Source: Dakarella massiliensis (lineage in GTDB: Bacteria > Pseudomonadota > Gammaproteobacteria > Burkholderiales > Burkholderiaceae_F). Taken from it: a stretch of DNA of 64,000 nucleotides. The stretch is taken from positions 434,001-498,000 of the forward strand of contig NZ_CVTY01000005.1 of the NCBI RefSeq assembly GCF_001182045.1. The letters are read 5' to 3'. The notes beneath the pieces are model-generated. The model did not search any database and was not told the DNA's origin. It saw only the letters and a program-made list of their open reading frames with translations. Numbering within the stretch: the first letter of the stretch is position 1; each line of letters opens with the position of its first letter. The position numbers and the translations under genes are program-made. Below are positions 19,102-38,949 of the stretch, piece by piece.

Positions 19102-19191
19102 TCCTCGGCGGGTCCCCTCGCATGAGGAAGCCATGAATCTGGTCAGGTCGGGAACGAAGCAGCCATAGTGGATTTTCTTCAGTGCCGAGGA
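19102..19191 (+). ncRNA. ffs: signal recognition particle 4.5S RNA
   Basis: The RNA partner of Ffh that targets membrane and secreted proteins. The ends pair (TCCTCGGC at 19102-19109 with GCCGAGGA at 19184-19191). The apex holds the conserved domain IV sequence GGTCAGGTCGGGAACGAAGC at 19141-19160, with the loop nucleotides that bind Ffh. Length of about 90 nt fits the bacterial small SRP type. Its position just before dnaX is seen in other proteobacteria. Exact ends are inferred from pairing. Confidence 0.93.
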
Positions 19192-19480
19192 TAAGGCTCG
19201 CCACTTTTGTATCTGTACTATCCGTTTCGGGCAGAACATTCGCTTCCGCCGCCGGATATCCGTTTCAGAACTGTTCCCCAGACTGTCTCCCCAAGCGATC
19301 GCCCCTGCGGTCAAATTCTGCTAGAGTCAACGATCATTCAGCTAAGGTTCGGCTGAGACGCCGGAAGACTGTCCGGAGATCCGACTGAAAATCCCGGGGC
19401 AGAAAAGTCTGCGCTCCCGGCCGCACTCCTGCGAACATCCGGCTGCCGGATCCGCGTCTCTTCCCAATAGGAAATGACTA

Positions 19481-21617: not shown

Positions 21618-22232
21618 ATGGCTCTTAGTCCCAAGCTGAGAAGACTCGCGGAGGCGCTCGCAGAACTGCCGGGCATCGGCCCGCTTTCGGCTCAGCGGAT
21701 CGCGTTTCATCTCCTTTCGGATGACGAGCACGCGGAAGCGCACCGTCTGGCGAAGGAGCTTGAGGATGCCGCGGCATCCGTCAGGCACTGCGCCCGATGC
21801 AATACGCTCTGCGAGTCCGAGATCTGCGACACCTGTTCCGACGAGACCCGCGAGAAAGACAAGCTCTGCATCGTGGAAACGCCGGCGGATCAGCTCGTGA
21901 TCGAGGGGTCGCACTCGTACCGGGGACTCTACTATGTACTCGGCGGACGGCTTTCCCCGGTGGAGAATCGGGGCCCTGAGCAGCTGGGCTTCAGCCGTCT
22001 GATCGAGAGAATCAAGGAGCCGGAGGTAAAGGAAGTGATTCTGGCGACTTCCTTCACAGCCGAAGGCGACGCCACAGCCCACTACATTGCGCTTGCGGTG
22101 TCCCGCCATCGCCCGGATATCCGGCTGACAAGACTTGCCCGGGGCATCCCGACCGGGATTGAGCTCGAGTACACCGATGTGGCAACCGTGGCTCACGCAA
22201 TCCTGGGACGGCGTGACGCGGAATCGCGATAA
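21618..22232 (+). CDS. recR: recombination mediator RecR
   Basis: RecR acts with RecO (and RecF) to load RecA on single-stranded gaps. The 204-residue product has an N-terminal helix-hairpin-helix (LAELPGIGPLSAQRIAFHLL), a four-cysteine zinc finger (CARC...CDTC, about residues 57-72) and a Toprim domain with the VETPADQLVIEGSHSYRGLYYVLGG-type block. GGAG lies upstream of the ATG. It closes the dnaX-ybaB-recR operon. Confidence 0.97.
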   Translation: MALSPKLRRLAEALAELPGIGPLSAQRIAFHLLSDDEHAEAHRLAKELEDAAASVRHCARCNTLCESEICDTCSDETREKDKLCIVETPADQLVIEGSHSYRGLYYVLGGRLSPVENRGPEQLGFSRLIERIKEPEVKEVILATSFTAEGDATAHYIALAVSRHRPDIRLTRLARGIPTGIELEYTDVATVAHAILGRRDAESR

Positions 22233-22255
22233 AAGAGCGATTTTCTTGCTTTTTT
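22233..22255 (+). terminator. likely recR terminator
   Basis: AAGAGCGA (22233-22240) can pair with TTGCTTTT (22246-22253) with two G-U pairs around TTTTC, running into the T-tract. It also overlaps the possible -35 of the next promoter. Confidence 0.5.
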
Positions 22256-22274
22256 CCCTATTCGGGAATAATGT
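22246..22274 (+). promoter_or_regulatory. possible promoter of the ABC importer leader
   Basis: TTGCTT (22246-22251) and TAATGT (22269-22274) are separated by 17 bp. Both match the sigma-70 consensus only in part. A start near 22282 would place the whole structured leader in the transcript. Confidence 0.4.
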
Positions 22275-22307
22275 AATTCTTACGACTTTTATTCAGAGGC
22301 ACCTTAA

Positions 22308-22442
22308 GTGCATTTCACGGCTGACAATCCGAACGCCTGCCAGGGACTTTCCAAGAAAGCCCCCGTTCGTGCTGCCCGTGAATTCCTTCTTGCCCTAGGC
22401 GGACTACTGCTACCCGTTATCCGCCATGGGAGGATTGTTTAG
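22308..22442 (+). CDS. possible 44-residue leader ORF, unconfirmed
   Basis: A GTG at 22308 with AGAGG 8 nt upstream opens a frame that stops with TAG at 22440. The predicted peptide has a polar start (MHFTADNPNACQGLSKKA) and a leucine-rich middle (LLALGGLLLPVI). Its stop lies just past the P4/antiterminator arm, so translation could affect the terminator. It matches no family I know, and the same bases form the RNA helices, so it may be a chance frame. Confidence 0.2.
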   Translation: MHFTADNPNACQGLSKKAPVRAAREFLLALGGLLLPVIRHGRIV

Positions 22443-22483
22443 GGCTGAATAGAGCCGTTTTTTAAACATATTTGTCGCCATAG

Positions 22484-22529
22484 GCGGATACACGGATTCA
22501 TCTGAGTCTGTTGTGTATCCGCTTTTTTT
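22484..22529 (+). terminator. terminator in the leader, upstream of the importer genes
   Basis: GCGGATACAC (22484-22493) and GTGTATCCGC (22513-22522) form a perfect 10-bp stem followed by seven T. It lies 31 nt before the first gene of the operon and has no gene in front that needs it, which makes it a regulatory (attenuating) terminator. Confidence 0.88.
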
Positions 22530-22559
22530 ATTGCCTGAATCGTTTGGAGAGTACCGAAA

Positions 22560-23597
22560 ATGACTATCACCCGTCGTGCATTCATCACCGCTGCTGCCGG
22601 CATGGCTGCGGCTTCCGCCTTCCCGTTCAGCGAGGCCTTTGCTGCCGCTCCTGAGAAGAAGAACATCAAGATTGCGGTCGGCGGTCAGCAGCTTGTGTAC
22701 TACCTTCCCCTCACAATTGCGGACCGTCTCGGTTACTTCCGCGATGAGGGACTGAATGTCAGCGTGATCGATTTCCAGGGCGGCTCCAAGTCGCTTCAGG
22801 CGGTTGTGGGCGGATCGGCTGACATCTGCTCCGGCGCGTTCGAGCACACAGTCATCATGCAGACCCGCGGTCAGCGCATGCAGGCCTTCGTGCTTCAGGG
22901 CCGGGCGCCTCAATGCGTTTTCGCGGCGAATCTCCACACGATGAAGAATTTCCGAAGCGCGAAGGAACTGAAGGGAAAGCGTATCGGCGTGACGGCGCCC
23001 GGATCCTCCTCCCAGATCATGGCGAACTACTGTCTGAAGGCCGCCGGCATCAAGCCGAACGAGGTGTCAATCATTGGCATCGGCTCTTCCTCCGGCGCCA
23101 TTGCCGCGATCCGTTCGGGTCAGGTCGATGCCTTCGTGCAGCTGGATCCGGTGATTTCGATGCTGATGGAAAAGAAGGAAATCGCGATTATTGCTGATAC
23201 CCGCAAGGTGGCGGAGAGCGACCGGCTTTACGGCGGGCCTATGGTGGCAGGCTGCCTCTACGCTCCGGAATCCTTTATCCGCAAGAATCCGAACACGATC
23301 CAGGCAATCACGAACGCCATGGTGCGCGCCGATAAGTGGATCGCCAAGGCGACGCCGGAACAGGTCGTGAAGGTCGTGCCTTCCAGATACTTCATGGGGG
23401 ATAAAAAGCTCTATATCCAGTCGTTCCTCAGCAACCGTCCGGCGCTTTCCCGCGACGGGCTGATCCCCGCGAAGGCTCCTGAAGTCGCGAAGCACGCCCT
23501 GAGCACGGTGAATCCTCAGATTGAGCGCGCGAGGCTTGATCTTGAGGCGACCTATACGAACCGTTTCGCGGCGGAAGCGAATAAGCGCTATCGCTGA
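22560..23597 (+). CDS. ABC transporter substrate-binding protein, NMT1/SsuA family
   Basis: The 345-residue periplasmic protein begins MTITRRAFITAAAGMAAASA, a twin-arginine type export signal (TRRAFI) with cleavage likely after AEAFAAA-like sequence near residue 29. The mature part has the NMT1/THI5 and SsuA/TauA fold pattern: YYLPLTIADRLGYFRDEGLNV, then GGSADICSGAFEH and GKRIGVTAPGSSS. Known relatives bind sulfonates, nitrate, thiamine precursors, riboflavin or aromatic compounds. The CCC cysteine motif of HMP-binding proteins is absent. It is the first gene of an SBP-ATPase-permease operon controlled by the structured leader. The substrate is unknown. Confidence 0.9.
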   Translation: MTITRRAFITAAAGMAAASAFPFSEAFAAAPEKKNIKIAVGGQQLVYYLPLTIADRLGYFRDEGLNVSVIDFQGGSKSLQAVVGGSADICSGAFEHTVIMQTRGQRMQAFVLQGRAPQCVFAANLHTMKNFRSAKELKGKRIGVTAPGSSSQIMANYCLKAAGIKPNEVSIIGIGSSSGAIAAIRSGQVDAFVQLDPVISMLMEKKEIAIIADTRKVAESDRLYGGPMVAGCLYAPESFIRKNPNTIQAITNAMVRADKWIAKATPEQVVKVVPSRYFMGDKKLYIQSFLSNRPALSRDGLIPAKAPEVAKHALSTVNPQIERARLDLEATYTNRFAAEANKRYR

Positions 23598-23685: not shown

Positions 23686-24516
23686 ATGAATACACCTGAA
23701 ACCAATACGCCCGCGATCGAAATCTCGGATCTCGCCTGCACCTTTATTTCCGGCGACGGAAAGAAGGAGTCGCATTACACCGCGGTCCGGGACGTCAATC
23801 TCTCCATCCGAGCCGGTGAATTTGTGAGCATCGTGGGTCCCACGGGATGCGGAAAATCCACGATTCTCAATATGACTGCGGGGCTCCTGAAGCCGTCTCA
23901 CGGCACGATCCGCATTTTCGGCGAGCCGCTTTCCGGGCTGAACCGACGGGCCGGGTATATGTTCCAGGCGGAGAACCTGATGCCGTGGCGAAGCGCGCTC
24001 GGGAACGTGATCGCCGGACTTGAATTCAAAGGCGTGAAGAAGAGCGAGGCAATTGAGAAGGGCCGTCACTGGCTGCGCCGTGTGGGGCTCGCCGGATTTG
24101 AGGACAGCTATCCGCATCATCTTTCAGGCGGCATGAGAAAGCGTGTCTCGATGGCACAGACACTCATCATGGATCCCGACATCATTCTGATGGATGAAAG
24201 CTTTTCCTCGCTGGATATCCAGACGCGGCAGCTGATGGAAAACCTGCTGCTTGATCTCTGGTCAGGTGAAAAGAAAGCAGTGCTCTTTATCACGCACGAT
24301 CTTGATGAAGCTATCTCCATGAGTGACCGGGTGATCGTGATGTCAGCCGGTCCCGCTTCACACCCAATCGGCGAATTCCTGATTGACCTGCCCCGTCCCC
24401 GGGATGTCACGGAGGTGAGGGGGGACCCGAGATTTGTCTCGCTCCACCGGTCGATCTGGAACGTGCTTCGCGAGGAAGTGTTGAAGGGCTACGAAAATCA
24501 GATGCAGAGGAAGTAA
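23686..24516 (+). CDS. ABC transporter ATP-binding protein, SsuB/TauB type
   Basis: The 276-residue cytoplasmic ATPase has Walker A GPTGCGKST (about residues 52-60), Q-loop MFQAENLMPW, signature LSGGMRKRVSMAQ, Walker B IILMDE and the switch histidine in FITHDLDEA. These are hallmarks of the nitrate/sulfonate/taurine importer ATPases. It starts 88 nt after the binding protein gene and ends 3 nt before the permease gene. Confidence 0.94.
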   Translation: MNTPETNTPAIEISDLACTFISGDGKKESHYTAVRDVNLSIRAGEFVSIVGPTGCGKSTILNMTAGLLKPSHGTIRIFGEPLSGLNRRAGYMFQAENLMPWRSALGNVIAGLEFKGVKKSEAIEKGRHWLRRVGLAGFEDSYPHHLSGGMRKRVSMAQTLIMDPDIILMDESFSSLDIQTRQLMENLLLDLWSGEKKAVLFITHDLDEAISMSDRVIVMSAGPASHPIGEFLIDLPRPRDVTEVRGDPRFVSLHRSIWNVLREEVLKGYENQMQRK

Positions 24517-24519
24517 GTC

Positions 24520-25344
24520 ATGTTTAAAAGCAAATGGATCCTTCACTTCTGGCAGGCGGTGCTTCTCGCCGTCATTTTCGTTGCCTGGTGGGCACTCACG
24601 AAACCTGGGCTCATTCCCCCCTTCATTTTTGAGAATGACACCCAGGCGGCCTTCTTCTTCGGTGAGCCGGTGGAAATTTTCCACCGTATCTGGGACTGGT
24701 TCTTTGTGAACCATGAAATTTATGAGCACCTTGCCGTGACGCTCTGGGAAACGGTGCTCGCGTTTGCGATCGGCACGGTGTCCGGTCTGATTGTGGGGCT
24801 CTGGCTCGGTCTCAGTCCGCGAGCCGCGGCGATCGCTGACCCGTTTATCAAGGGACTCAACTCCTGCCCGCGCGTGATTCTTGCCCCGATCTTTGCTGTG
24901 TGGTTCGGTCTTGGGCCGGCCTCCAAAGTGGCGCTCGGTGTCACGATTGTGTTCTTCATCGTGTTCTTCAACGTTTTCCAGGGTATCCGTGAAGTCAATC
25001 CGAATGTCCTGAATTCCGTTCGGATGCTGGGGGCGAACCGCCGTCAGCTCCTCACCGCAGTGTACCTGCCCTCCGCCATGAGCTGGGTGTTCTCGTCGCT
25101 TCACTCTTCGGTTGGCATGGCGTTCGTCGGCGCGGTGATTGGTGAATACCTTGGATCCGCGAAGGGGGTTGGCTACCTGATTCTCCAGGCAGAAGGCGTT
25201 TTCGATATCAACACGGTGATGGCCGGCATTCTGGTGCTGACGCTTTTCGCAGTGATTCTGGACTGGTTTGTGAGCCTTGCGGAAGCGCGGCTCATGCGCT
25301 GGCAGCCGAAGACCGCGAGTGTCAGGACAGAGCAGGGTATCTGA
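24520..25344 (+). CDS. ABC transporter permease, SsuC/TauC type
   Basis: The 274-residue inner-membrane protein has about six membrane segments. It carries the permease loop that docks on the ATPase, in which VNPNVLNSVRMLGANRRQL precedes the YLPSAMSWVFSSL segment, and the family block FVGAVIGEYLGSAKGVGYLI. A GGAAG site lies before the ATG. It completes the importer. The operon ends at a GC-rich hairpin. Confidence 0.93.
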   Translation: MFKSKWILHFWQAVLLAVIFVAWWALTKPGLIPPFIFENDTQAAFFFGEPVEIFHRIWDWFFVNHEIYEHLAVTLWETVLAFAIGTVSGLIVGLWLGLSPRAAAIADPFIKGLNSCPRVILAPIFAVWFGLGPASKVALGVTIVFFIVFFNVFQGIREVNPNVLNSVRMLGANRRQLLTAVYLPSAMSWVFSSLHSSVGMAFVGAVIGEYLGSAKGVGYLILQAEGVFDINTVMAGILVLTLFAVILDWFVSLAEARLMRWQPKTASVRTEQGI

Positions 25345-38673: not shown

Positions 38674-38750
38674 TGGGGTGGGGGGTCGGACTCGAACCGA
38701 CGACAACCGGAATCACAATCCGGGACTCTACCAACTGAGCTACACCCACC
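38674..38750 (-). tRNA. tRNA-His (anticodon GTG)
   Basis: A 77-nt cloverleaf with the extra 5' G-1 opposite C73 that identifies tRNA-His, anticodon loop TTGTGAT and an encoded CCA end. The acceptor helix GTGGGTG/CCCCCAC has a U6-C67 mismatch, and the D stem has a G-U pair. Confidence 0.95.
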
Positions 38751-38769
38751 ATTACAACTGATTTACTAC

Positions 38770-38846
38770 TGGTCCACCCGGCAGGATTCGAACCAGCGAC
38801 CCTCTGCTTAGAAGGCAGATGCTCTATCCAACTGAGCTACGGGCGG
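38770..38846 (-). tRNA. tRNA-Arg (anticodon TCT)
   Basis: A 77-nt cloverleaf with anticodon loop CTTCTAA, acceptor CCGCCCG/CGGGTGG, discriminator A and encoded CCA. The T stem GCTGG/CCTGC has a central U-U mismatch. Middle gene of the operon. Confidence 0.95.
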
Positions 38847-38872
38847 ATCGATTCTGCTTTGCAGACTCTGTC

Positions 38873-38949
38873 TGGTCGGGGTGAAGAGATTCGAACTCCC
38901 GACATCCTGCTCCCAAAGCAGGCGCGCTACCAGACTGCGCCACACCCCG
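38873..38949 (-). tRNA. tRNA-Pro (anticodon TGG)
   Basis: A 77-nt cloverleaf with anticodon loop TTTGGGA, acceptor CGGGGTG/CACCCCG, discriminator A and encoded CCA. It is first in the minus-strand Pro-Arg-His operon. Confidence 0.96.

Follow-up and report, generated by a model that had tools for sequence, protein, structure and literature searches.

The locus and its leader reading frame

The window, by which we mean the whole stretch of DNA that was analysed (64,000 nucleotides), is part of genome G000, contig C5. Within it, the end of recR at 22232 is followed by a leader region and then by the genes of an NMT1/SsuA-type ABC importer, with a predicted terminator beginning 251 nt downstream of recR. 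The features of this region are as follows.

22246-22274, + strand: weak promoter-like site TTGCTT-N17-TAATGT, a putative by-eye reading
22295-22299, + strand: Shine-Dalgarno-like AGAGG, 8 nt 5' of the leader GTG, read from the sequence
22308-22442, + strand: leader peptide open reading frame (ORF), GTG start at 22308, TAG stop at 22440-22442, 44 codons plus stop, (M)HFTADNPNACQGLSKKAPVRAAREFLLALGGLLLPVIRHGRIV
22314-22382, + strand: nested rod (P1-P3), in the coding portion of the leader
22386-22412, + strand: leucine codons CTT CTT gcc CTA ggc gga CTA CTG CTA
22398-22425, + strand: helix 1:2 (P4), 22398-22403 pairing with 22420-22425, strand 1 lying within the leucine cluster
22413-22432, + strand: antiterminator strand 2, ending 7 nt 5' of the leader stop codon
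22475-22496, + strand: strand 3, common to antiterminator and terminator
22483-22529, + strand: helix 3:4, predicted intrinsic terminator, stem 22483-22523, U-tract 22523-22529
22560-23597, + strand: substrate-binding protein, NMT1/SsuA type, NMT1_2 and NMT1 above the Pfam cut-off
23686-24516, + strand: ABC transporter ATPase
24520-25344, + strand: ABC transporter permease

The binding protein is 99% identical in Mesosutterella multiformis (NZ_BGZJ01000001.1); its nearest solved structure is 3qsl, a 'putative exported protein' (E 6e-102), and its NCBIfam matches all lie below their cut-offs. Gene neighbours and comparison with the PDB gave no settled cargo. Elsewhere in the window are a small SRP RNA and three tRNA genes (19107-19205 and 38677-38949).

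The leader peptide, which is identical in the relative G002 (same genus code), contains the stretch LLALGGLLL, encoded at 22386-22412, and its choice of codons is unusual: three of its seven leucine codons are CTA, against 18 of 1,806 in 42 long window ORFs that do not overlap one another and were chosen by length and not from an annotation (P = 3.4e-5). The pattern CTACTNCTA occurs 22 times in the whole genome G000 and its reversed-pattern control 219 times, in keeping with the rarity of CTA. Taken alone, the window leader shows marginal clustering of leucine (P = 0.045 against shuffles), and its leucine content over the whole ORF gives P = 0.14. The case for an attenuator is built on comparison with relatives. 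A consensus scan returned no promoter before the leader, and the GTG start together with the weak promoter counts against an attenuator.

Competing helices in the window

The segment 22282-22559 folds at -90.8 kcal/mol (z -3.4), a value reached by none of 200 shuffles. The original prediction had described here an orphan riboswitch or attenuator candidate made of a nested rod, the hairpin P4, a perfect terminator and an alternative pairing of the 3' arm of P4, while overlooking the leader ORF that contains both rod and P4. The pairings of the rod are present near the places given for them (-22.8 kcal/mol), and the rod is possibly a pause hairpin. P4 likewise forms as described, at -12.7 kcal/mol when 22396-22429 is folded. 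The terminator is a hairpin with a U-tract, of -23.1 to -23.2 kcal/mol, and falls short of perfect by a 3-nt bulge in its 3' arm. This bulge is probably why a generic terminator scan did not list 22483-22529 and listed a weaker hairpin at 22413-22430 instead. The alternative pairing exists and is larger than had been proposed: it joins approximately 22413-22432 with 22475-22496 at -26.6 kcal/mol, as low as which none of 300 shuffles came, strand 2 containing UUAUCCGCCAUGG and its partner GGCGGAUA. The idea of three mutually exclusive pairings thus holds in the window, where they take the form of the helices 1:2, 2:3 and 3:4 of a ribosome-mediated attenuator; helix 1:2 was checked for the window only.

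Ribosome position and the choice of helix

To relate these helices to translation we used a model that folds only the RNA already clear of the ribosome, which begins 12 nt downstream of where the A-site codon starts, at a moment when strand 4 has yet to be transcribed. Placing the ribosome on the leucine codons at 22386-22395 gives a pairing of strands 2 and 3 of 0.99, and over the successive leucine codons the pairing runs 0.99, 0.99, 0.99, 0.85, 0.71 and 0.55, falling to 0.00 at the stop codon. When strand 4 is added and the ribosome stands at the stop, the terminator forms at 0.82. In this folding model, the control codons lie where a stalled ribosome leaves strand 2 accessible, and one that has reached the stop codon covers it.

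The full transcript at equilibrium is less accommodating: the terminator then reaches 0.48-0.82 with the ribosome on the leucine codons, the first codon giving a value as high as the stop, which counts against the scheme. Because the terminator competes at equilibrium, the model needs co-transcriptional timing, and the order of synthesis must decide. A cruder ribosome scan over 17 leaders found more antiterminator on the leucine codons than at the stop in 16 of them (two by at most 0.05), and more on the leucine codons than on other codons in 13 of the 17. The window leader itself goes in the wrong direction in the cruder scan, with 0.57 on the leucine codons and 0.78 at the stop, a reversal that the finer folding model traces to a local pairing of -10.8 kcal/mol.

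Recurrence in relatives

Relatives are grouped here by genome codes that stand for genera of the family (g1, g5, g10, g13, g15 and g16). Homologues of the binding protein are present in 47 of 67 genomes of the family, and upstream DNA was taken from 46: 19 in g1, g16, g5, g13 and g15, one further g16 genome with 38 nt, nine in g10 and 17 in other genera. G070, in which the importer is in two fragments, and G069, with its 38 nt, were not counted. Statistics on 17 leaders leave out the near-duplicates G002 and G004. A search of 61 genomes with the leader DNA gave full-length matches only to G002 (98%) and to the window itself, with matches of about 50 nt around the terminator in G001 and G004; orthologues were found via the protein. 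The G000 leader shares only 52% identity with the leaders of G003 and G001.

The arrangement nevertheless recurs. In all 19 readable leaders, in five genera, the importer gene is immediately preceded by a terminator hairpin and its U-tract; the hairpin energy is below -9 kcal/mol in 18 and weakest in G016 at -9.0. All 19 also have a short ORF with leucine codons near strand 2. The ORFs of G068 and G074, with three and five leucine codons, and several start codons elsewhere were picked by eye. With ORFs picked automatically, the clustering of leucine over 17 leaders reaches z = 12.2, and none of 200 shuffle sets is as high. The next residue after leucine is cysteine at z = 3.9; the hydrophobic residues alanine and valine reach 2.4 and 2.1. 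Leucine lies outside the top six residues in the 17 importer upstreams of other genera. A mild leucine signal is also present before leuA (z = 2.5, n = 19), which counts against the attenuator. The CTA excess is seen in g1 and most of g16, and TTG, CTG and CTT dominate in g5, g13 and g15.

The antiterminator pairing 2:3 was found in all 17 leaders, at -14.4 to -26.6 kcal/mol, with strand 2 at most 30 nt from the leader stop. At most 5% of shuffles pair as well in 12 of the 17; against this stand G074, G001, G067, G072 and G073, in which 53, 52, 28, 27 and 17 of 300 shuffles do as well. The sequences that pair differ from genus to genus: GUGCGUC with GACGCAC in most g16 leaders, and CUGUUUUUG with partners such as AAGAACAG in g5, g13 and g15. 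These differences between genera imply that strands 2, 3 and 4 changed together, which would be covariation in kind. Conservation of the helices in relatives, by which the original prediction was to be judged, therefore has a divided answer: the rod has no fold in common among relatives, and the antiterminator and terminator pair is present throughout the 17 leaders in different sequences.

Outside the leucine cluster the peptides are hardly conserved between species, and several leaders share GLLRLxL-like endings. Most pairs of leaders lack an excess of changes at third codon positions (28/20/29 in G028/G016; 22/13/18 in G008/G034), with an excess only in G081/G083 (1/1/5), so there is no classical sign of coding selection outside the cluster, and this counts against the attenuator. 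Gapped positions within the ORF sum to 0 in five pairs and to multiples of three in five more (15, 15, 3, 15 and 12); the 22 in G000/G003 belong to a poor alignment at 52% identity. Such free divergence fits a leader in which the peptide itself serves no function, and is no positive proof of translation. None of these traits, that is the codon-position pattern, the restricted occurrence of CTA and the terminator at equilibrium, is unusual for a leader of the leucine-attenuator kind.

Specificity of the arrangement

A uniform scan was defined by at least five leucines in 12 codons, a terminator of at most -9 kcal/mol and a 2:3 pairing of at most -14 kcal/mol. It is positive in 17 of the 19 importer leaders, in five genera, G068 and G074 being the two that fail. 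In the controls it is positive in 0 of 20 upstreams of leuA, 1 of 17 of leuC, 0 of 11 of ilvB, 0 of 22 importers at the level of the order and 0 of 17 importers of other genera. Before leuA and leuC 500 nt were read, before ilvB 450 nt; the leuA upstreams came from 20 genomes, 15 of them among the 19 that bear a leader, and one was only 147 nt long, while the leuC set comprised 14 leuC genes and three second leuC genes. Of the biosynthetic genes the control set covers leuA, leuC and ilvB, and a leader before an earlier gene of the operon would escape it. At the order level, 75 of 399 genomes matched, and 22 loci outside the family were read.

The single positive among the controls is the leuC upstream of G073 (L099), with a TTG start, five leucines in 12 codons and a terminator of -13.3 kcal/mol; the leuC upstreams of G019, G030, G071 and G072 fail the scan. 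Leucine-rich stretches lie before leuA in four g16 genomes. The one in G030 was rejected as a leader, since it forms the C-terminal end of a membrane-protein-like open frame that spans at least 211 residues, and by likeness those in the other three genomes are probably of the same kind.

With a downstream-gene condition added, the scan is positive at one site on the two strands of the 64 kb window, and that site is the leader. Across about 337 kb (the window, 15 other regions and 17 importer loci) it matches only importer leaders, namely the window and 14 of the 17 loci. As the 15 regions include all six that carry a CoA-transferase gene, a leader before the CoA-transferase would have shown. 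Two CTA-rich patterns gave 25 matches at 24 places in the whole genome, among which the leader alone combines a short ORF that has a start codon with a terminator downstream; one of the CTA-rich sites, lacking a start codon, has a hairpin of -11.7 kcal/mol downstream.

The related genus g10 and the history of the leader

In a quick tree of 49 binding proteins, the leader-bearing importers and those of g10 form one clade (SH-aLRT 99). The tree leaves out G070 as well as G024 and G010, which are only 28-29% identical and may be non-orthologues. The presence of the leader on this tree takes one change if g10 is counted as having it and two if not, and the count does not separate gain from loss. 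The g10 loci (L032, L035, L038, L042, L044, L054, L056, L057 and L059) carry a leucine signal of z = 4.7 over eight leaders, G087 with its 233 nt being excluded from the clustering test. Eight of the nine fail the uniform scan and G090 passes, and single folds of all nine revealed no clear common off-switch. It is possible that the g10 leaders act through another output, Rho or translation. In G081, also of g10, a GntR/UTRA regulator gene stands before the importer (L113 1304-2017).

A proposed leucine attenuator and its alternatives

We consider it very likely that transcription of the NMT1/SsuA-type ABC importer operon is controlled here by a classical ribosome-mediated attenuator, with charged tRNA-Leu as the quantity sensed. 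In the proposed scheme, when leucine is scarce the ribosome would stall in the leucine cluster of the 44-codon leader and cover strand 1, which would leave strand 2 free to pair with strand 3 as the antiterminator, and RNA polymerase would continue into the importer genes. With ample leucine, the ribosome would instead reach the stop codon and cover strand 2, so that strand 3 would pair with strand 4 and transcription would end near 22529. The scheme thus supposes that the leader is translated, that transcripts stop near 22529 and that leucine is the signal.

The same reading frame could instead encode either a small membrane protein that has a function of its own or a nascent-chain arrest peptide, leucine being enriched for its hydrophobicity. 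The leucine-rich stretches do resemble membrane segments, and the shared GLLRLxL-like endings could be read in this way. However, the lack of conservation outside the leucine cluster speaks against a peptide with its own function, other hydrophobic residues such as alanine and valine are less enriched, and the excess of the rare CTA in g1 together with the position of strand 2 fits the sensing of codons. On balance this explanation seems very improbable.

An aptamer riboswitch, either a divergent xanthine-I (NMT1 motif) RNA or a member of a new class, would have the rod bind a ligand and choose between P4 with the terminator and the antiterminator. The rod is long and stable and precedes an NMT1-type importer, and the 85 nt from just 5' of the leader start to the leucine cluster fold at z -2.2. 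Yet in the 17 leaders, compared by inspection of single folds, the region before the leucine cluster adopts unrelated folds (z +0.4 to -4.1) with no structure in common, and the rod is itself a coding part of the leader. Nor did covariance models lend support. All 4,227 Rfam families were scanned: 22000-22800 gave, down to E = 10, three sub-threshold matches, none of them a riboswitch, and in 17 loci, the window's own and those of 16 relatives, nothing matched at E <= 1. Xanthine-I in particular has no match at E <= 10 in 22000-22800, and the motif is presumably in the library scanned. Among the weak matches, SR6-antitoxin and L20-leader (22351-22536, including the terminator) were set aside as far below their gathering scores. 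The available text on xanthine-I RNAs adds that these have almost no intrinsic terminators (PMC7373994). With a leucine-codon ORF standing where an attenuator needs one, the riboswitch of the original prediction was abandoned as more improbable still. Least probable of all is an ordinary recR terminator with a chance alternative pairing. In its favour, the hairpin begins 251 nt beyond the end of recR. Against it, each of the 19 readable leaders, from five genera, has the hairpin next to the importer gene and after a leucine-codon ORF, and 39 outgroup importer upstreams lack the combination.

Relation to known leader elements

A leucine attenuator is thus our preferred reading, and its kind is well known. 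In Escherichia coli and Salmonella, the leu attenuator combines the leuL peptide, competing helices and an intrinsic terminator, and controls leuABCD. The element in the window would work, by analogy, like this enteric one, with which it shares leucine control codons including CUA/CTA, competing helices and a terminator; it differs in standing before an ABC importer instead of leuABCD and in its lack of an Rfam match. The Rfam Leu leader (enteric leuL), which we take to be among the families scanned, gave no covariance-model match in the window or the 16 relatives. As far as the accessible part of PMC1183508 goes, the leu leader of Salmonella has CUA as its control codon and TTG is, by theory, a poor control codon in E. 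coli; the prominence of TTG in g5, g13 and g15 therefore counts against the proposal.

Other systems are less close, judged by the portions of the sources at hand. The ilv-leu leader of Staphylococcus aureus likewise has a leucine-rich peptide and alternative terminator and antiterminator folds, but belongs to a Gram-positive organism and to branched-chain amino acid biosynthesis, and its predicted antiterminator captures the U-tract, not the 5' arm of the terminator (PMC5794164). The LEU element before leuA of Actinobacteria, in the excerpts available, relies on a pseudoknot in which the run of leucine codons pairs with the leuA Shine-Dalgarno box. A survey of 2010 in Genome Biol predicted 205 attenuated ABC transporter genes (PMC2965389), and, so far as its main text goes, describes a shared element before a sulfonate ABC transporter operon; that element is among those of bacilli and is given no sensing mechanism, and the word 'leucine' does not occur in that text. 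Xanthine-I RNAs, according to the parts consulted of PMC7373994, also precede genes that include transporters such as tauA, but are aptamers with conserved junctions that act mostly by sequestering the ribosome-binding site, unlike the leader ORF and intrinsic terminator of the window.

The open-access PMC literature, as far as it was accessible, yielded neither a leucine leader peptide described for Sutterellaceae nor one placed ahead of an importer of the NMT1/SsuA type. Mesosutterella, a genus of the Sutterellaceae, was described from human feces, according to the portion of the source available. While this kind of attenuator is already known, its importer target and its lineage look new.

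Cargo and implications

Six of 12 outgroup regions (G014, G021, G009, G015, G005 and G080; loci L111 2672-6334, L112, L114, L116, L117 and L120) carry a gene for a CaiB-type CoA-transferase between recR and the importer. In G014 the genes for the binding protein and the ATPase are separated by one for a LeuC paralogue. These neighbours suggest, though indirectly, a carboxylate cargo in those outgroup genomes and offer a lead to the cargo. G000 itself, like several relatives, encodes a second LeuC-family protein, above the family cut-off, at C5:220012-221406.

The cargo of the importer in the window is perhaps leucine or something from which leucine is made. As a tentative extension, which we regard as plausible but somewhat short of an even chance, the NMT1/SsuA-type transporter may be, in the clade of Mesosutterella and its relatives, a main regulated route to leucine or to an acid from which leucine is formed, such as a branched-chain or isopropylmalate-like one. 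This would be why the attenuator guards the importer there instead of leuA, leuC or ilvB, the genes covered by the controls.

The finding has a practical side: where a region has been called an orphan riboswitch, it seems advisable to check first for a leader peptide. It also assigns a predicted signal, the charging of tRNA with leucine, to an importer for which sequence does not reveal the cargo, and so gives a cheap handle on uptake. A predicted leucine attenuator stands here before a transporter and not a biosynthetic operon, throughout the readable members of five genera, and would have been kept while all three of its pairing strands changed sequence. If the proposal on cargo is true, it would add a new substrate class to the NMT1/SsuA superfamily, and the supply of leucine in these bacteria would be controlled at uptake by a leader peptide.
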